Below are positions 5,706 through 34,427 of a DNA stretch of 64,000 nt, in pieces. The stretch lies in the NCBI GenBank assembly GCA_013297755.1, contig JAAFIH010000011.1, positions 1 through 64,000 of the forward strand, given 5' to 3'. The notes under the pieces were generated by a model that did not search any database, was not told the origin of the DNA, and saw nothing but the letters and a program-made list of their open reading frames with translations. How positions within the stretch are numbered: the first letter of the stretch is position 1; every line of letters starts with the position of its first letter. This DNA comes from Cytophagales bacterium (GTDB lineage: Bacteria > Bacteroidota > Bacteroidia > Cytophagales > UBA9547). The position numbers and the translations under genes were made by a program.

Positions 5706-5732
5706 AACCCTAAATTTTTGGGACAAGCAAAT

Positions 5733-8700
5733 ATGAAGTATAACATAGAAGAAGAATTAGAGAAAAGAATATTGATTTTGGATGGTGCCATGGGTACCAT
5801 GATTCAACGCTATAAACTTGAAGAAAAAGACTATCGCGGTGAAAGATATAAAGACTGGCATATTCCGCTCAAAGGAAATAATGACTTGCTAGGAATTACT
5901 CGTCCTGATGTTTTAGAAGAAATTCATAAACTTTATTTAGAAGCAGGAGCAGATATCATTGAAACTAACACATTTTCAGGCACATGGGTAGCCATGGCTG
6001 ATTATGAAATGGAAAAAGAAGTGTATGATATCAATTATTATAATGCAAAAGTTGCTCGCAAAGCTGCTGATGACTATACCAAGCTCAATCCTTCTAAACC
6101 ACGTTTTGTGGCTGGTGCAATGGGTCCAACTACCAAATTGGCATCTATGAGTCCTGATGTAAACGACCCTGGATATAGAGCCATTACTTTTGATCAATTG
6201 GTAGAAGCCTACACTACCCAAATCAAAGCATTAATAGATGGAGGAGTGGATACTTTGCTTTTTGAAACCATTACAGATACCTTAAATAGCAAAGCTGGAC
6301 TTTTTGCGGCATTAAAACTTTTCAAAGAACTTTCAGAAGGTGAAGGTTTTTTTATTTCTCCAATAGATGGTAGAAAAGTTTATTTGAATTCAGGCGACAG
6401 CAAAGCCCCCTTCGGGGGTTTGGGGGCTGGGCTTCCTCTCATGATTTCTGGTACTATCACAGATGCATCTGGTCGTACTCTTTCTGGACAAACTACAGAA
6501 GCTTTTTATAACTCTGTTTGCCATGCAAACTTATTAAGTATTGGACTCAATTGTGCTTTGGGTGCAAAAGATATGCGTCCCTATTTGGAAGAATTATCAC
6601 GAATTTCATCCAGCTATGTGAGTATTTATCCCAATGCTGGTTTGCCAAATCAGTTTGGCGAATATGATGAAACACCTGAAATGATGGTAGAAAAGGGTGT
6701 TCACCAAGAATTTATTGACTCTGGTTTTGTGAATATCATAGGTGGCTGTTGTGGAACTACTCCAGATCATATTCGTGAAATGGCTAAAATGGCTGAGGGT
6801 AAAAAACCAAGAAAACGTGCTAATCCTGAACCATTTTTACGTTTGAGTGGGCTTGAGCCAGCTACTTTTACCAGAGAAAGTATGTTTATCAATATAGGTG
6901 AGAGAACAAACATTACAGGTTCTGCAAAATTTGCAAAACTTATAAGAGAAGAAAAGTTAGATGAAGCCCTCACCGTAGCTCGTGAGCAAGTAGAAAATGG
7001 CGCACAAGTCATAGACATTAACATGGACGAAGGAATGATAGATTCTGAAGCCATGATGACTCGTTTTTTGAACCTAATTGCAGCTGAACCAGATATTGCT
7101 AAAGTTCCCGTGATGATAGATTCATCAAAATGGAGTGTAATTGAGGCAGGCTTGAAATGCTCACAAGGAAAAGCCATTGTAAACTCTATTTCACTCAAAG
7201 AAGGGGTGGAGAAATTCAAAGAGTCTGCTCACAAAATTAAAATGTATGGAGCTGCTACTGTAGTTATGGCTTTTGATGAAACTGGTCAAGCAGATAGCTA
7301 TGAACGTAGAATCCAAATCTGCAAACGCAGCTATGATATTTTAGTTAATGAAGTCGGCTTTAATCCCCAAGACATCATTTTTGACCCAAATATTCTAACA
7401 GTAGCCACAGGAATGGAAGAGCACAACAACTATGCTGTTGACTTTTTCAATGCTACTAAATGGATAAAAGAGAATCTTCCCTATGCACGTGTGAGCGGTG
7501 GTGTTTCAAATATTTCTTTTTCATTTCGTGGAAACAATCATGTACGCGAAGCCATGCACTCTGCATTCTTATATCATGGTATCAAACATGGCTTAGATAT
7601 GGGTATAGTAAATGCAGGTATCATTCCAGTGTATGACGATATTGATAAAGAACTTTTACAATATATAGAAGATGTGTTGCTCAATCGTAGAGCAGATTCT
7701 ACTGAACGTTTGGTAGAATATGCTGATAAAATAAAAGCCCAACATTCTGGACAAAAAGCCGAAAAACAAGATGAAGAATGGCGTAAACTTCCTGTAAAAG
7801 AGCGTCTTACACATTCACTTGTAAAAGGAATGGATGCCTACATAGATGCTGATGTGGAGGAATGTCGTTTGCTTTTTGACAAACCATTAGAAGTGATAGA
7901 AGGTCCTTTGATGGATGGCATGAATGTAGTTGGAGATTTATTTGGAGCTGGAAAAATGTTTTTACCTCAAGTGGTAAAATCTGCAAGGGTAATGAAAAAG
8001 GCTGTTGCTTTTCTCCTTCCATACATTGAAGCAGAAAAGTTGCGTACAGGAAACACCACCACCAACGCAGGGAAGGTTTTGATGGCAACAGTAAAAGGTG
8101 ATGTTCACGATATTGGAAAAAATATTGTAGGTGTGGTAATGGCTTGTAACAATTATGAAGTGATTGATATTGGCGTAATGGTGCCTGCTGAAAAAATCAT
8201 CAAAACTGCCATTGAGCAAAATGTAGATGTTATAGGATTGAGTGGTTTGATTACTCCATCATTAGACGAAATGGTGCACATGGCTAAGCAAATGCAAAGA
8301 CAAGGTTTTAAAATTCCTTTATTGATAGGTGGAGCTACCACTTCACGTATTCATACTGCAGTGAAAATAGACCCGCAATATGATGGGCCAGTGGTTCATG
8401 TGTTGGATGCTTCTCGTTCTGTGCCTGTGGTGTCAAATCTTTTAGGAAAAGATACCAAAGAAGATTTCTTTTTGAAAACTAAGGCAGAATATGCTCGCAT
8501 GAGAGAAGAACATGCTAGCAAACAAAAGGACAAAAATTTTGTGAAACTAGAAGAAGCTAGAGCCAAAAAATTCAAAACTGATTGGAATACAGTAACACCA
8601 ATAAAACCTTCATTCTTAGGAAATAAAACTTTTAATAATTACCCCTTAGAAGAAATAGCCAAATACATAGACTGGACTCCATTCTTCCAAACTTGGGAAT

Positions 8701-11573
8701 TGGCAGGAAAATATCCTAAAATTTTAAGTGATGAAGTGGTAGGCAAAGAGGCTACTAAACTATTTGAAGATGCACAAAAAATGCTTCGTCAAATCATTGA
8801 CAGAAAAATGATTCAAGCCAATGCTGTAATTGGATTCTATCCTGCAAATGCAGTAAATGATGATGATATAGAATTAGATTTAAGTGTATTGCAAGGTGCA
8901 AATACAAAAAATCTTTCTATTCTAAATTGGGATAAGTCAAAAAGAATAGCTTCAATAAAAGAAGTGCTTAAAAAGGATAATTATTATGATGAGTCAAAAG
9001 GAGATTTTGATAAACTTTCGATTTACACTAATACATTTATTGAAGAATATCTTCAATTTGATTATTTCAACACAATTACAACACATTTCAATGATATACT
9101 AGCATTTGAACCAGATAGCAGATCAGTAGAAAGAGATGGTTATGAAATTTCACAGATAAAATATGCATTACATTTTGTAACAGGAGAAACAAATTTAAAC
9201 ACACGAACAATTGATTATTCAAAATGTGAGAAACTTAATCTAATAGCTGACTGTATTAAAAATGCGGAAGAAAAGTATAAGCAAGTGAAAAATAATACAG
9301 TAATATATGTTCAAGAACTTAATGATGCTGAACATTCTGTAATTGCGATGAGAATTGAAATTGATAAAAATGGCATTCTGCGTCCAGTATCATTCATGCC
9401 AGATTATCGTAGTTCACGTATAGAAAAAAGAAAAGCATCGAAAGAATGGACTCTCAATGCTTTCGGACAACACAGCAATGGTACTTTAACTACACATCCT
9501 GTCTCCTATGGCAATTCGGATAAAGCGACAACGACCTTCGGCAATGCAAATATACAAAATAAAATTATTGAAATAAAAAATAATGAAAGTATTTTGAATT
9601 TGCGTAGAGAAGAGAGGTTGAAGTTTATTGAAAAATATATTTCAGAAAGCAAATATTACACTGATAAAAATGGCTCTTATGAGATGATTGCCGAAAGCTC
9701 AAACTATGTCATTGAAAATCATTTTATTTTTACTTTTCCAAACTTTTCAGTATCTTCTATTGGAGAAAAAATTACATTTTATCCTGAAAGAAGAGCTGTC
9801 GAAAGGATAGGATTATTAAAATCTCAGATTGAATATGCTTGCCATTTTGTAACATCAAATAATCATAAAGACGAACCAAAATCTTTTGATAAGTCCAAAG
9901 CCGACCATATTTCATTTATGAAATCAGTTTTAGAAAAACCAGATGAGAGACTTATAGAAAAAAATGATTATGGTAAGAGTGTTTTATATCTAAAAAAAGA
10001 AGAGGATAAAAATTTTGTTTCTGTTTTAAGATCTGATATTGATGAAAATGGAATGGCAAGAGTTGTTACGTTTATGCCAAATCAAAAAACGTCTCAAATA
10101 GAAAACAAAAAAGCCTCGAACAAATGGTTGCCCGAAGCTTTTTCCTTACTCTCCACTACAAAGCCGCTTCCCGGTAAAGACCTCTTTGATGATTATGATA
10201 AGCAGACCATCACCAAATCCTATGCAAATATACAAAATAAAATTATTGAAATAAAAAATAATGAAAGTATTTTGAATTTGCGTAGAGAAGAAAGGGTAAA
10301 GTTTATTGAAAATTTTTTAATTGAAAGTAAAAATTATAATGAAAAATCAGGCGATTTCAATTCTATCTCAATTGCTGCAAATGAATTAGCAGAAATATAT
10401 TTTGAATTTAATAAGCAAAACCCAGTTATATCTGATTTAGGCGAAAAAGTATGTTTTGAACCAGATTACAGGGCAATTCAAAGAGTTGGATATTCATTGG
10501 CACAGGTGGAATACGCTTCACATTTCGTAACATCAAACACAACAGGAAAAGAGCCAAGGAGTCTAGATAAATCAAAAAAAGATAGCATAAAACACATTAT
10601 GGATGTTCTAAAACATCCCACACAAAGGTTAATAGAAATTAATAACTATGGAAAATCAGTAATGTATATAAAAACAGAAGCCGATAAAAATTTTACTTCT
10701 GTATTAAGGGCTGACTTAGAAAATGGTATTCTAAGAGTAGTTACGTTTATGCCAAATCAAAAAACGTCTCAAATAGAAAACAAAAAAGCCTCGAACAAAT
10801 GGTTGCCCGAAGCTTTTTCCGTACTCTTCACTACCAAGCCGCTTCCCGGTGAAGACCTCTTTGATGATTATGATAAGCAGACCATCACCAAATCCGATGC
10901 AAATATACAAAATATTTTCTCAAATCCAAACAAAATAAATATTCCTTCTTCGGGGGCAAGGGGGCTAATTTTACATCACCTACGCCAACAAACCAAACGA
11001 GCTGAGGGAGTACCTTACATGTGTTTGACAGATTTTGTAGCTCCAAAAGAAAGTGGAAAACAAGATTATATTGGTGGATTTGCAGTGTGTACAGGCATAG
11101 GTATGGAAAAACATATCGAAAAATATGAAAAAGACCATGACGACTACAACTCTATCATGCTCAAAGCCCTTGCCGACCGTTTTGCAGAAGCTTTTGCAGA
11201 ACTCATGCACGAAAAAGTACGCAGAGAACTTTGGGGCTACGCCAAAGATGAAAAAATATCTACTGAGCAATTAATTGAAGAAGAATATCAAGGTATTCGT
11301 CCAGCACCTGGCTACCCTGCATGCCCAGACCATACAGAAAAAGCTACTTTATTTGAATTGCTTGAAGTAGAAAAAAATACAGGTATGATTCTTACAGACA
11401 GCTTTGCTATGTACCCAGCTGCAGCTGTAAGTGGTTGGTATTTCTCTCATCCACAATCCAAATATTTTGGTTTAGGAAAAATAGACAAAGACCAAGTGTT
11501 AGATTATTCTAAGCGTAAAAACATGGATTTAGACACTACCGAAAGGTGGTTGAGTCCTGCTTTGGGGTATTGA
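5733..11573 (+). CDS. metH: Cobalamin-dependent methionine synthase with a giant in-frame insertion
   Basis: MetH transfers a methyl group from methyltetrahydrofolate via cobalamin to homocysteine in the cytoplasm. All domains are present: the homocysteine domain (GLNCALG and GGCCGTTP zinc cysteines), the pterin domain ([13 protein letters not shown]), the B12 domain ([13 protein letters not shown]) and the reactivation domain ([18 protein letters not shown]). I chose the ATG at 5733 over the TTG at 5718 because it gives the usual MetH N-terminus. The product is about 1946 residues, against about 1230 for the family. The excess is at about residues 1050-1746, inside the reactivation domain between [15 protein letters not shown] and HHLRQQ, and is made of three repeated modules. 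A further insert of about 30 residues interrupts the homocysteine domain (about 6345-6433). No intein-type terminal residues are seen. Whether the enzyme is active is unknown. Confidence 0.95.
6345..6435 (+). repeat. In-frame insert in the MetH homocysteine domain containing a GC-rich element
   Basis: Between KLFKELSEG and [14 protein letters not shown] there are about 30 residues that typical MetH proteins lack. The DNA at about 6406-6429 is a GC-rich imperfect palindrome (GCCCCCTTCGGGGGTTTGGGGGC), strikingly unlike its AT-rich surroundings. It matches the intergenic copy at about 867-884. The reading frame stays open through it ([10 protein letters not shown]). Confidence 0.65.
8898..9545 (+). 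repeat. MetH insert, module 1
   Basis: This is the first and most diverged of three tandem modules (216 residues). It starts with ANTKN where the others start with ANIQN. It shares with them the skeleton [26 protein letters not shown], a central NTVIYVQE strand and [20 protein letters not shown]. Its last 30 residues ([20 protein letters not shown]) differ from the other modules. Confidence 0.8.
9546..10223 (+). repeat. MetH insert, module 2
   Basis: A module of 226 residues starting [20 protein letters not shown]. Conserved blocks in order: [67 protein letters not shown], and [14 protein letters not shown] at the end. The first about 85 bp and last about 170 bp are nearly identical to module 3, while the core is strongly diverged. 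Confidence 0.85.
10224..10898 (+). repeat. MetH insert, module 3
   Basis: A module of 225 residues with the same order of blocks as module 2 ([52 protein letters not shown]). It is followed at 10899 by the first 15 bases of a further module (ANIQN). The frame then exits into the MetH reactivation domain through a GC-rich segment (TTCGGGGGCAAGGGGGC, about 10949-10965). Confidence 0.85.
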
Positions 11574-11679
11574 TAGGTAAATATATAAGTTTAAAATAGA
11601 GAAAAGCACATTTTTTTTATTTTAATAAATTAAAAATAAGATATTTACGTTTAGTTATTACAGGAAAAAGAATTATTTA

Positions 11680-12978
11680 ATGAACATAAAAATAAAAATC
11701 AACGAGCTTGGCGTAATTAAAGATAGTGAAGTTGAGTTTAAACCTTTTTTGATTTTCTCTGGTGAAAGTAGTGTTGGAAAAAGCTATACAGCTTTTTTAA
11801 TTTATCATTTGACATCTTTGTTTAAAACTGGACTTGAAAATAGGCTTTCAGGATTTGTAAAAAATAAATATATTAATGATTTAGAATCTAATAAAAGCAA
11901 ATCAAATTGGAAACTATTTATAAAGGCAGAAGATTTTAAGAGGTGGTTTAATCATGAAGCTAGTAATTATATTGGATATTTACTAGGATATGATTCTTTT
12001 AAATGTGATATTGAATTAAATATTGACTTATTAGACTTAGAAATTGAGATTATTTATCCTAATACTAATGGTGCTAGAAATGAAAATATTTTAAGTGAAA
12101 GTATGACTTTTAATTTAAATGGTAAAGGTTCTTATAATATTCAGAAATCAATTTTTGAATCAAAAAAAACTGATGTTATTGGGGCCTTAGTTTCAATTTA
12201 TCTTCGATTGCAATTATTAGATACTGATATTAGAATAGTTCCTATTTTACTTCCACCTGCAAGAGGAGGAATTGTGGGATACAATTTTTCGGAAATGAGT
12301 GCTATATCCAATACAGCAGGTATGTACAGGGAGTTTATAAAAGATTTAGATTTTATAAAATCTCCAAGCCCAACCAAAAACCCAGAAAATAGGGATTTGA
12401 CAAAACTTTTAAATAATATTTTTAATGGTAATATAAAAGTAAAAGAAAGCAAATTGGAATATCATATTGATAACAAAGAAAAAACAATTCTTCCTATTAC
12501 TGCATCAGCATCTTCAATAAAAGAACTATCACCTTTGTTTTTGATGTTAAAAAACTTTCCAATGAGTCAGTTGTCAGTTTTATTTGAAGAACCTGAAGCA
12601 CATTTGCATCCATTAATGCAACAAAATGTGGCTTCATTATTGGCTTTTATTATAAACAACCATGGATTTATACAAATGACTACTCACAGTGATTATTTAT
12701 TAAATCAAATAAATAATTTGATTAAACTTGGTCACATTAAAGAAAAAAACAAGAATCGATATAAAGAATTATTAAAAAAACTTGACATTTCTGAAAGTAT
12801 TATTTTGCAGGAAAATATGATTGGTTCTTATTATTTCGAAAAACTTAGTAATGGATCCGTTAAAATTATCAACCAAAACTTAAAAAAAGATAATGAAGGG
12901 ATTTCATTTACAACTTTTGATAAAGCAGTAGAAAAAATGACTTTGCAAACGAGAGAAATAGACACTTATTTACATTAA
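11680..12978 (+). CDS. AAA family ATPase (AAA_15/AAA_21-like), candidate defence component
   Basis: A 432-residue ABC/SMC-type AAA ATPase resembling the ATPases of OLD, PARIS and retron-associated defence systems. It opens like them, with the N-terminal strand INELGVIKDSEVEFKPFLIFSG running into the Walker A GESSVGKS (about residues 30-37). Walker B and signature lie near the C-terminus (LSVLFEEPEAHLHPLMQQ), followed by the TTHSDYLLNQ His switch. The middle is a diverse helical insert. It forms a two-gene unit with the predicted nuclease that starts one base after its stop. The pair lies between metH and a second copy of the metH 3' end, suggesting acquisition as an islet. Substrate and trigger are unknown. 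Confidence 0.85.
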   Translation: MNIKIKINELGVIKDSEVEFKPFLIFSGESSVGKSYTAFLIYHLTSLFKTGLENRLSGFVKNKYINDLESNKSKSNWKLFIKAEDFKRWFNHEASNYIGYLLGYDSFKCDIELNIDLLDLEIEIIYPNTNGARNENILSESMTFNLNGKGSYNIQKSIFESKKTDVIGALVSIYLRLQLLDTDIRIVPILLPPARGGIVGYNFSEMSAISNTAGMYREFIKDLDFIKSPSPTKNPENRDLTKLLNNIFNGNIKVKESKLEYHIDNKEKTILPITASASSIKELSPLFLMLKNFPMSQLSVLFEEPEAHLHPLMQQNVASLLAFIINNHGFIQMTTHSDYLLNQINNLIKLGHIKEKNKNRYKELLKKLDISESIILQENMIGSYYFEKLSNGSVKIINQNLKKDNEGISFTTFDKAVEKMTLQTREIDTYLH

Positions 12979-12979
12979 A

Positions 12980-13600
12980 ATGACTTTAGAAGAATTAAAC
13001 AATTCCTTGAAAGGAGTTTTTGAAAAATGTAGTCTAGATTTCTTAGAAAATGAAATAAATATTTTAGAAACAGATGTAAGATCAACCAAAATTAAAGAGA
13101 TAACATTTAAACACCCTAATATCATAAAGTTCCCAGAGAAATTAATTAATAGTACTGGAAGTTTATTAAACAAAATCAATTCTAATTTGTCTTTAAGATT
13201 TAATACTGATGGTATTTTTATTTTAAATGAAAATCAGTCCTATAGTTTTTATTTTGTTGAATTAAAAGACACTTTAAAAGGTGATAATTTTCAAAAAGCA
13301 TTAAATCAATTACTTGCTTCCTATGTTAAACTAAAGTGGATTATGCACTTAACCTCAAATATTTTACCTTCAAAACTATCATTTAATTTTTATATAGTTA
13401 GCACAATAAGTACAGAAGATAAGATAATAGCATCAAAAAACATAAAAAATGATAAATATTCAGAATTTATTATCAATAGAAAGGTTTTTCTATCAAAACA
13501 AGATTTAAAGATTAATGAAGTTCCACTGAGCAATGACTACAAAGTTGAGTCAATAACTCTAAATTTAATTGAAGGCAATTCCCAAATTATTCAATTATAA
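12980..13600 (+). CDS. Predicted PD-(D/E)XK-like nuclease partner of the ATPase
   Basis: A 206-residue protein with no family I can name. Residues 77-110 fit a PD-(D/E)XK nuclease core: Asp77 in a short strand (TDGIFIL), Glu94-Leu-Lys96 at the end of the next (FYFVELK), and a helix with QKALNQLLASY after it, as in many restriction-like folds. The N-terminal 70 residues are mainly helical. The last 60 residues hold strands (LSFNFYIVSTI). It starts one base after the ATPase stop codon, so the two are coupled. An ATPase sensor plus nuclease effector is a common layout of anti-phage systems. The nuclease call is an inference from motif spacing and has not been confirmed by structure prediction. 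Confidence 0.55.
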   Translation: MTLEELNNSLKGVFEKCSLDFLENEINILETDVRSTKIKEITFKHPNIIKFPEKLINSTGSLLNKINSNLSLRFNTDGIFILNENQSYSFYFVELKDTLKGDNFQKALNQLLASYVKLKWIMHLTSNILPSKLSFNFYIVSTISTEDKIIASKNIKNDKYSEFIINRKVFLSKQDLKINEVPLSNDYKVESITLNLIEGNSQIIQL

Positions 13601-13648
13601 AATTTAGACACAACAGAAAGATGGTTGAGTCCTGCTTTGGGATATTAA
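13601..13648 (+). pseudogene. Second copy of the metH 3' end
   Basis: Translated in frame, these bases read [15 protein letters not shown] and stop. This matches the C-terminus of MetH (11526-11573) in every residue but the first. About 47 of 56 bases match by eye, and within the coding part the differences after the first codon are all synonymous. The copy lies 2.0 kb downstream of the real metH stop, with the ATPase-nuclease pair between. It directly precedes a terminator hairpin, so it is probably the original metH end, cut off when the islet entered. Confidence 0.85.
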
Positions 13649-13653
13649 ATAGT

Positions 13654-13680
13654 AAAGGCTCTCAAATTTTGAGAGCCTTT
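13654..13680. terminator. Intrinsic terminator, usable from both sides
   Basis: AAAGGCTCTCAAA and TTTGAGAGCCTTT form a near-perfect hairpin followed by a T-rich run on the plus strand (ATTTTTTATTTTT) and preceded by A-rich DNA. It would end the metH/islet transcript and also the minus-strand operon that stops at 13686. Confidence 0.85.
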
Positions 13681-15554: not shown

Positions 15555-15583
15555 TTTTTTATTATTTGTAATAAATATTATTT

Positions 15584-15671
15584 AATCAATAATCAATAAT
15601 CAATAATCAATAATCAATAATCAATAATCAATAATCAATAATCAATAATCAATAATCAATAATCAATAATC
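15584..15671. repeat. 7-bp tandem repeat (AATCAAT), about 12.5 copies
   Basis: An uninterrupted run of the unit AATCAAT. It begins 30 bp upstream of the lipoprotein start codon and ends directly at the stop codon of the Dabb gene. All copies appear perfect, which suggests active slippage or recent expansion. Confidence 0.95.
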
Positions 15672-15672
15672 A

Positions 15673-15987
15673 TTAAACGCTGACATTATCAAAAACAACG
15701 ACTTTTTCCCAGTATTGTTTGCAATTTTCTACAAAACTAAGATGAATAGGATGATTTTGGTAAACATCATGCCCTGTTTCATCGGCAAAAACAGTAAGCA
15801 AACAATAAGAATACGACCTATCAATGACAGGTCTGTGCGTATTGGCAGGCGTTCCTATATTAAAATAGGTTATACTTTCTATATCTTTTAATGATTTTAG
15901 GCCTTTTTCAAAATTCAAAATCTGTTCTTTTGTGAGGTCGCTTTTCAACCAAAAATTGACAATATGTACAAATTTACTAGAAGTCAT
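15673..15987 (-). CDS. Dabb (stress-response A/B barrel) family protein
   Basis: A 104-residue protein with the dimeric alpha/beta barrel pattern of the Dabb family. It has the N-terminal strand FVHIVNFWLKSDLT, a helix with EQILNFEKGLKSLKDI, then YSYCLLTVFADETGHDVYQNHP and a C-terminal helix with VENCKQYWEKVVVFD. Dabb proteins are small cytoplasmic proteins, some of which are enzymes or stress-responsive. The reaction here is unknown. The length matches the family. The stop codon touches the 7-bp tandem repeat. Confidence 0.85.
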   Translation of the reverse strand: MTSSKFVHIVNFWLKSDLTKEQILNFEKGLKSLKDIESITYFNIGTPANTHRPVIDRSYSYCLLTVFADETGHDVYQNHPIHLSFVENCKQYWEKVVVFDNVSV

Positions 15988-32909: not shown

Positions 32910-32970
32910 TGATTTTTAATTAACTTATAACATATTTAATTTAGATAAATTTAAAAAATACATAAAAAGT

Positions 32971-33145
32971 ATTTCAAAATAATATCAAAATAATATCAAA
33001 AAAATATCAAAAAAATATCAAAAAAATATCAAAAAAATATCAAAAAAATATCAAAAAAATATCAAAATAATATCAAAATAATATCAAAATAATATCAAAA
33101 TAATATCAAAATAATATCAAAATAATATCAAAATAATATCAAAAT
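32971..33145. repeat. 11-bp tandem repeat (ATATCAAAATA), about 15 copies, abutting tyrS
   Basis: Fifteen units of ATATCAAAANA plus one degenerate first unit (ATTTCAAAATA). Outer units read ATATCAAAATA, while the central block reads ATATCAAAAAA. The last unit runs straight into the ATG of tyrS (AAAATAATGAC). The A-tracts recur every 11 bp, about one helical turn, which predicts bent DNA. The repeat occupies the whole promoter and leader region of tyrS. Confidence 0.95.
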
Positions 33146-33146
33146 A

Positions 33147-34427
33147 ATGACTTTTATAGAAGATTTAAAATGGCGTGGAATGGTGCATGACATTATGCCT
33201 GGCACCGAACAAATGCTCGAAAAAGAAATGGTTACTGCATACGTAGGCGTAGACCCCACTGCTGATTCTATGCACGTAGGCCACTTAGTATCTGTAATGA
33301 TGCTCAAGCATTTGCAAATGGCTGGCCACAAGCCTATTTTGGTTGTAGGTGGTGCTACTGGTATGATAGGTGATCCTTCTGGCAAATCGGCCGAAAGGAA
33401 TTTACTCTCTGAAGATGTTTTGCAACATAATGTAGAAAGCCTTAAAAATCAAATGCGTAAGTTTTTGGATTTTAATACTTCAAAAAATCCAGCTGAGTTA
33501 TTGAATAATTATGACTGGATGAAAGATTTTAGTTTTCTTACTTTTTTAAGGGACATTGGAAAACACCTCACCGTGAGCTACATGATGAGCAAAGATTCTG
33601 TCCAAAAAAGATTAGAAACTGGACTTTCGTTTACAGAATTTAGCTACCAATTATTGCAAGGATATGATTTTTATTGGCTTTATACCCACAAAAATTGCAA
33701 ATTACAACTTGGTGGGTCCGACCAATGGGGAAATATTGTTACAGGCACCGAGCTCATTCGCAGAAAAGCAAATGGCGAAGCATTCGCTCTTACTTGCCCT
33801 TTGATGGTAAAATCAGATGGACAAAAATTTGGAAAAACCGAAAGTGGCACAGTTTGGCTCGACCCAACTAAAACCTCGCCTTATCGTTTTTATCAATTTT
33901 GGCTCAATTCGGCCGATGTTGATGTGGCAGCTTGGATTAAAATTTTTACTTTAAAATCTAAAGAAGAGATAGAAAAACTACAAGCCGCCCATAAAGAAGC
34001 ACCTCATTTGAGAATTTTGCAAAAAGCATTGGCAGAAGATGTTACAGTGAGGGTTCATAGCCAAATTGACCTTGATAATGCCATTGAGGCCTCTGAAATA
34101 CTTTTTGGAAAAGGCACTACTGAAACACTACAAAAACTAGATGAAGATACATTTTTGGCAATTTTTGATGGGGTAACCCAAATTTCAATCAATAAAGATG
34201 TTTTTGAAAATACATCAACAGTGGCTGATTTGCTTTCAAATATTACCCAAAACCAAATATTTCCATCAAAAGGAGAAGCCAAAAAAATGATTGAGGGCGG
34301 AGGTGTAAGTATCAACAAACAAAAAATTGATAGCCCATCACAAAAATTAATATTTAATTTAATAAGACAAAAATATTTACTTGTTCAAAAAGGTAAGAAA
34401 AACTATTATATAATTTCAATACAATAA
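33147..34427 (+). CDS. tyrS: Tyrosyl-tRNA synthetase
   Basis: A 426-residue class I synthetase charging tRNA-Tyr. The HIGH motif appears as HVGH in [18 protein letters not shown] (about 36-53), the tyrosine pocket as [14 protein letters not shown], and [13 protein letters not shown] follows. The KMSKS loop is KFGKTESG (about 231-238). The C-terminal S4 RNA-binding domain (about 355-420) has [19 protein letters not shown]. The length is typical. It has no conventional leader: the 11-bp tandem repeat abuts the start codon. A MITE-like element begins two bases after the stop. Confidence 0.97.

Follow-up and report, generated by a model that had tools for sequence, protein, structure and literature searches.

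The metH locus

The window, by which we mean the whole stretch of 64,000 nucleotides analysed here, carries metH, the gene of cobalamin-dependent methionine synthase, on the forward strand at 5733..11573. The gene is a single open reading frame of 1946 codons from ATG at 5733 to the stop at 11573, encoding 1946 amino acids, or 1951 if read from TTG at 5718. All five Pfam domains of MetH (PF02574, PF00809, PF02607, PF02310 and PF02965) were detected, which places the product among the MetH proteins and agrees with the first-pass annotation, in which an open frame of about 1946 codons with intact MetH parts had been described. The match to the activation domain, PF02965, falls into two stretches. 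No second MetH match was found in the genome (4.24 Mb, judged 100% complete), and MetE (PF01717) gave no match there; the same search was positive in 10 of 14 control genomes. MetH has to move its domains from one to another of three substrates, with the activation domain needing to dock on the cobalamin domain.

At the end of metH, a 55-nt stretch (11527-11581) is repeated at 85% at 13602-13656, behind two genes, namely a PD-T4-4_A-like AAA ATPase (11680-12978, PADLOC E 7.1e-38) and an ORF (12980-13600) located between the ATPase and the second 55-nt copy. Judged from this arrangement, the two-gene stretch looks like a defence-like insertion at the metH 3' end. Over the stretches compared, blastn gave no match between the window's sequence downstream of metH and either of the two other genus members sampled (G001 and G002). 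Short tandem arrays were seen at 724-812 (AATTAAG, 12.7 copies, 84% matches), 15583-15676 (TAATCAA, 13.4 copies, 98% matches) and 32953-33148 (AAAAAATATCA, 17.6 copies, 94% matches).

The in-frame insert in the activation domain

At 8901..10973 on the forward strand, 691 codons are inserted in frame into a loop of the activation domain; the insert was delimited by comparison with G001, G002 and E. coli MetH (PDB 1k7y). An in-frame insertion of about 690 residues in this reactivation domain had been proposed beforehand, and was recovered here with no in-frame stop and as absent from G001. At the matching site G001 reads DDDIEL-KLSLQGA-GDKTVML-HHLRQQ, so that the seven residues GDKTVML stand against 691 codons in the window, where the insert is located between LSVLQGA and HHLRQQ. 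The borders first assigned to it, 8880-10967, were close, but LSVLQGA (8880-8900) is native, since G001 has KLSLQGA at the matching place. In E. coli MetH the insert maps between residues 363 and 375 (1k7y), an 11-residue stretch which we take to be a hairpin and which is presumably exposed to solvent.

The other two forward frames over the insert contain 50 and 84 stops, and in 2000 Markov simulations with the insert's composition, no run had fewer than 29 stops in a frame. The GC content of the insert is 0.31 vs 0.37-0.40 for the surrounding MetH. In the full MetH protein, no intein or homing-endonuclease family was matched in Pfam at E values up to 0.1, which upholds the earlier statement that the insert is not an intein.

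Anatomy of the array

The insert consists of three tandem units of about 215-226 amino acids each, with a period of 675-678 nt, all on the forward strand: unit 1 at 8904..9560, unit 2 at 9561..10238 and unit 3 at 10239..10913. All three are closed by the same 15-nt junction word, GCAAATATACAAAAT, at 9546..9560 and again at 10224 and 10899 on the forward strand, and the same word ends the single unit of G002. At the amino acid level, unit 1 shares 32-36% identity with units 2 and 3, and unit 2 shares 65% with unit 3. At the DNA level, the 68 nt that start with the junction word are identical between 9546 and 10224, and towards their ends units 2 and 3 share 196 nt at 95%; in their mid-part, identity is 43-73% per 60-nt block. 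A recent triplication does not agree with these values, because the unit middles are diverged and only the ends are near-identical. The units thus appear to be old, and their ends may have been kept alike through recombination or conversion. Neither the "triplicated" insert nor the "element" able to triplicate, as the first-pass annotation had put it, is borne out by this pattern, for the insert occurs at one place in its genome and the units are old and diverged. Flanking inverted repeats were also missing: the score was 9.0 in the window and in G002, compared with a mean of 8.9 and a maximum of 12.5 for shuffles of the window.

Near-identical tandem ends are a typical assembly risk, and the exact copy number, which rests on one assembly, may be off. 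An assembly or binning artefact as the source of the array itself is nevertheless very unlikely, the faintest of the explanations considered, as the separate assembly of G002 shows an orthologous unit in the same place, 37% diverged in amino acids.

Distribution, age and constraint

Among the 98 relatives searched, the insert protein was present in two, the genome of the window and G002; among 395 genomes of the phylum, the array unit was found in the window's genome only. A single orthologous unit occupies this site in G002, a genus member, with 61-63% amino acid identity to unit 1 (63% for the direct pair), and in G001, the third genus member sampled, the unit is absent. The insert is hence foreign to MetH and not a normal family feature, as had been suspected, and close MetH proteins do not all share it, given that one of the two genus mates has one unit and the other none.

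Over three MetH stretches, G001 and G002 share nucleotide identities of 0.955, 0.871 and 0.879, and either shares 0.84-0.86 with the window. Since G001 and G002 are mutually closest in these stretches, the absence of the unit in G001 would be read best, as the simpler account, as a loss via deletion or replacement by an empty allele. The insert can be lost.

dS between unit 1 and the G002 unit is 0.98, and the flanks of the same pair give 1.00-1.35. With dS similar to that of the flanks, the insert and the split between the window species and G002 are of the same age. For the same pair, dN/dS is 0.33 in the unit and 0.02-0.04 in the flanks (Nei-Gojobori method; with dS near 1, the values are rough). 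On these substitution rates, the constraint on the insert is real but weak, about tenfold below that of the flanks, and the surrounding enzyme is strongly constrained. The dN/dS of 0.33 could also signal a real function of the insert.

That the activation domain is interrupted midway by 2 kb of inserted sequence could suggest a MetH that is inactivated or past needing reactivation, with the insert as debris in a decaying gene. This is highly improbable, as the frame is intact across all 691 codons, the flanks are held at the low dN/dS given above, and the genome offers neither a second MetH nor a MetE match. The possibility raised in the first-pass annotation that reactivation had become obsolete is not supported: in the part of the activation domain 3' of the insert, dN/dS is about 0.02 and a 15-residue stretch is retained, which we assume to lie in the AdoMet site.

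Homologue searches outside the genus

In the collections searched, no homologue of the unit was found outside the genus. With tblastn, unit 2 gave no match to phages and plasmids at E 0.01 and unit 1 none to plasmids at E 1; unit 3 against phages at E 1 returned just five Lactococcus records with E 0.9-1. Viral contigs contained no unit homologue, and genome contigs contained one match, REAG01000145.1 (Cytophagales), which was treated as the same record as contig C326 of G002. The units had no match in NCBIfam and none below E 0.05 in PHROGs, and the best hits of a PDB sequence search reached just E 0.42 and 0.75.

Possible BECR-like nature of the units

Weak matches to PBECR3 (PF18812) were obtained for unit 2 (E 1.4e-4, 22.2 bits; cut-off 30) and unit 3 (E 5.9e-6, 26.6 bits; cut-off 30). 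The whole insert, scored from two stretches, reached 29.7 bits, under the curated cut-off of 30, and unit 1 and the G002 unit gave no Pfam match. Across 295 genomes of the class, the PBECR3 profile matched three genomes, the window's own and two others. The best other match is L178, a long protein that matches LPD14 weakly. Its alignment with unit 2 does not rise above noise, and hhalign showed no relation when the units were compared with one clear PBECR3 sequence.

AlphaFold models were weak for both unit 2 (pLDDT 60, pTM 0.62) and unit 1 (pLDDT 58, pTM 0.53); they agree in having helices followed by four strands, and were built on the same four sequences, so that they are not independent. 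With Foldseek, the top PDB match of unit 2 was 6cp9 (probability 0.97, E 0.05), listed as a BECR tRNase toxin in the available part of PMC9086364. The same entry was second for unit 1 (probability 0.21), after an entry of FusB with the ribosome (probability 0.10). Nothing was matched at E 0.001 in the PDB or in the viral-model library, and the best viral model, at E 0.019, was a polyvalent-protein domain. VIA-align gave no Z of 5 or more; BrnT (3u97, Z 3.7) and 6cp9 (Z 3.4) both ranked under unrelated rows. The top VIA-align rows, with Z 4.5 and below, were other folds and were not taken as relatives. On the basis of these models and profiles, the unit may be called BECR-like and is not filed as PBECR3, a label which stays tentative.

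The PBECR signature, as given in the part of PMC5512222 that was available, comprises a His in the first helix and a Ser/Thr towards the end. At positions taken from the weak models, a His precedes the sheet in all four units, and the last strand carries T, T and S at the second position in question in units 2, 3 and 1 and Ala in the G002 unit, hence Ser/Thr in three of four. The units might accordingly be working BECR-type RNases tethered to MetH and held inert by the enzyme, which would serve as a defence or stress effector switched on as B12/AdoMet chemistry or phage infection alters the conformation of MetH. The invariant His and the T, T and S of the window units resemble that signature, dN/dS of 0.33 means constraint, and weak matches to PADLOC PDC-M04B were found for units 1 and 2, not for unit 3 (best E 2.3e-4). 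We nonetheless regard tethered, working RNases as unlikely: the G002 unit has Ala at the strand residue, G001 lives without the array, no immunity gene linked to the array came to notice, and the assignment of catalytic positions stands on weak models.

Inserts in MetH across the order

The loop that holds the array varies in length. Compared with the MetH of G006, 22-38 extra residues were found at this place in 13 other genomes and 181 in G033, in a survey of 85 genomes drawn from at least 89 with a MetH match among the matches listed (G007, G020, G026 and G039 left out); several of the 85 genes are interrupted by contig ends. MetH inserts of more than 100 amino acids occur in six of the 85 genomes, a tally that combines the comparison with G006 MetH and the inserts of the window's genome (G000) and G085, which were seen in separate comparisons. 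In G000 the insert is the three-unit array. G001 and G002 each have an insert of 149 amino acids in the linker before the B12 domain, and G002 has a second one, of 220 amino acids, which is the array unit. The insert of G089 (159 amino acids) lies in the linker before the B12 domain, that of G085 in the homocysteine domain, and that of G033 (181 amino acids) in the same activation-domain loop as the array. MetH is thus repeatedly invaded within the order. Two candidates were dropped, an apparent insert of 104 in G009, which is a run of N, and a split frame at the linker in G067, which is a frame break.

In 27 of the 85 genomes, e.g. at L043, L155 and L167, the MetH match restarts near G006 residue 327-345, as if the protein were split into two frames at the border of the homocysteine and folate domains; 23 of these 27 showed both parts.

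DUF559 inserts in MetH and tRNA synthetases

Apart from the array and the single unit of G002, every large MetH insert contains DUF559. This domain was found in the genomes of 44 of the 98 relatives, with 76 matches, of which 30 lie in stop-free frames of at least 600 amino acids; four of these 30 match only weakly and in part, and a gene is not proved by an open frame as such. The hosts include LeuRS, IleRS, MetH and restriction-modification proteins. LeuRS and MetRS were named from Pfam domains; the identities of IleRS and ValRS as hosts are our own assumption. The only DUF559 match in the genome of the window lies inside LeuRS (L130, G000:C23). Further in-frame copies in LeuRS, IleRS or MetH are L034, L035, L036, L037, L039, L087, L088, L091, L099, L100, L114, L115, L116, L126, L128 and L129. 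DUF559 was also seen in an AddA-like frame (by eye) and in HsdR, Type ISP, Eco57I-type and N6/N4 methylase frames; these loci are L113 (G038), L104, L105, L107, L117, L118, L119 and L127. In the AddA-like and the restriction and methylase frames it often adjoins repetitive peptides, and some of these copies may be native nuclease domains.

Flanking inverted repeats and a tree were evaluated for 42 of the 76 DUF559 matches, with a repeat threshold of 14.5 set at the 95th percentile of mismatched flank pairs. The threshold was exceeded by 26 of the 42 copies, many of the repeats being hairpins themselves, as judged by eye; 16 failed it, including the MetH copy of G033 (11.5). Among the 18 copies in MetH, LeuRS or IleRS, one of which (L120) is doubtful, 12 passed. 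The best pairing was with the copy's own partner in 15 of 42 only, and repeat sequences are common to some related copies. In the tree, one clade (99/97) unites the three MetH linker copies with the G085 copy and one LeuRS copy, and in G089 the copy in MetH is sister to the copy in LeuRS (90/77); the other branches are mostly weak, and the bootstrap had not settled. This mixing of MetH and LeuRS copies, together with the sister copies of G089, suggests that DUF559 moved between genes. DUF559 inserts may be coding, non-splicing mobile elements which have been little described.

The array could then be the cargo of such a DUF559 or inverted-repeat element that invades proteins in frame in the order, in keeping with the DUF559 inserts at three MetH sites in relatives, including the same loop in G033, and with a palindrome copy at the right edge of the array (see below). 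The array has no DUF559 domain and no terminal inverted repeats; its flanks score only 9.0 in the window and in G002, against 26 of 42 DUF559 copies above the threshold, the G002 unit is without the palindrome, and elsewhere in the genome the unit was not found. As the same-loop copy of G033 fails the repeat test as well, the missing repeats are not fully decisive; taken together, we consider cargo status for the array improbable.

The interspersed palindrome

The sequence CCCCCTTCGGGGGNNNGGGGGC, counted with up to two mismatches, has 82 copies in the genome of the window, vs one for a reversed control. Both copies in the window lie within metH on the forward strand. An exact in-frame copy at 6406..6427 is situated in the homocysteine domain, where it ends an insert of 25 amino acids beyond the G006 MetH; the small insert in this domain pointed out in the first-pass annotation therefore does exist. 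The second copy, at 10944..10965, has two mismatches, marks the right edge of the large insert and is absent at this place in G002. In being dispersed and read in frame in host proteins, the palindrome is like Rickettsia palindromic elements, a likeness that at this locus concerns the sites 6406 and 10944 only.

Where neighbouring copies within 600 bases point in opposite directions, their order is the same in eight of eight pairs, as expected of an element's inverted repeats; 26 neighbouring pairs have the same orientation. Among the 30 copies whose surroundings were read, ten are clearly in frame, with MetH, ValRS, IleRS, LeuRS and MetRS as hosts. In the four class I synthetases of this genome, in-frame palindromes were observed at L058-L061 and L131 (ValRS), L063 and L132 (IleRS), L071/L072 (LeuRS) and L078/L079 (MetRS), with several inverted pairs 57-98 bases apart. 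The synthetase palindromes resemble miniature DUF559 inserts.

Interpretation

The insert is probably a tolerated, translated appendage that keeps its fold, a distant relative of BECR RNase folds without a part in catalysis or reactivation; the tolerated surface domain, one of the options named at the outset, is the best reading. Three copies of one compact domain stand in tandem in the activation domain of MetH, in a loop that is presumably exposed, and would be translated within MetH. A distant kinship of this domain with phage BECR RNase-fold families is probable, and at least one copy of the array was already present when the window species and G002 split from their common ancestor. Tolerance would follow from the variable length of this loop across the order and from the array budding off as separate globular beads. 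Copy number would shift via recombination between the near-identical unit ends, selection would hold the units foldable and in frame and leave docking and reactivation alone, and one relative, G001, would have lost the units.

A broader scenario, to which we give somewhat less than an even chance, would have coding mobile DNA that does not splice land time and again in MetH and the class I tRNA synthetases of this order. A DUF559 nuclease gene between hairpin inverted repeats would hop in frame between essential genes and leave short palindromic scars, and the tolerant MetH loops would also have taken up a tandem phage RNase-fold array, which is now a resident, selected part of the enzyme.

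Together with the inserts of relatives at three sites, the array provides natural experiments on appendage tolerance in MetH, and it shows foreign domains settling in an essential-type enzyme without splicing. If mobile, the DUF559 inserts would be an element class that survives by translation inside essential proteins, a testable alternative to inteins. Searches of titles and abstract starts returned no paper on DUF559 as an in-frame mobile element, and searches of titles none on MetH activation-domain inserts or on homing endonucleases of the DUF559-insert kind.

Comparison with known systems

The activation domain of E. coli MetH (PDB 1msk, 1k7y, 3bul) aligns on either side of the insert, with 11 residues at the site vs 691 codons in the window. 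PBECR3 (PF18812) and the BECR domains of polyvalent proteins resemble the window units, according to the weak model, in a helix with His followed by four strands, and two of the three units gave partial HMM matches, below the curated cut-off. Those domains are found in phage or conjugative proteins, whereas the window units sit in a metabolic enzyme, and the G002 unit has Ala where Ser/Thr is expected. CdiA-CT of Klebsiella pneumoniae 342 (6cp9), the top PDB match of unit 2 and the second of unit 1, is weakly similar (E 0.05 or higher) and, unlike the array, is a delivered toxin with an immunity protein, as far as the available part of the source goes (PMC9086364).

In-frame palindromes within genes are known from Rickettsia and from REPs, as described in the available parts of PMC10969869 and PMC3733652, and the short in-frame palindromes at 6406 and 10944 are like these. 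Rickettsia palindromic elements and intragenic REPs are short, in contrast to the array with its 691 codons, which is neither palindromic nor repeated in the genome; having no inverted repeats, the array is kept apart from the palindrome and DUF559 elements. Inteins share with it the large in-frame insert in an essential-type enzyme, but no splicing domain was found in the metH insert, and excision is therefore not expected. As a large domain insertion in a loop, the array belongs to a known kind, and there may be more novelty in the DUF559 inserts than in the array.
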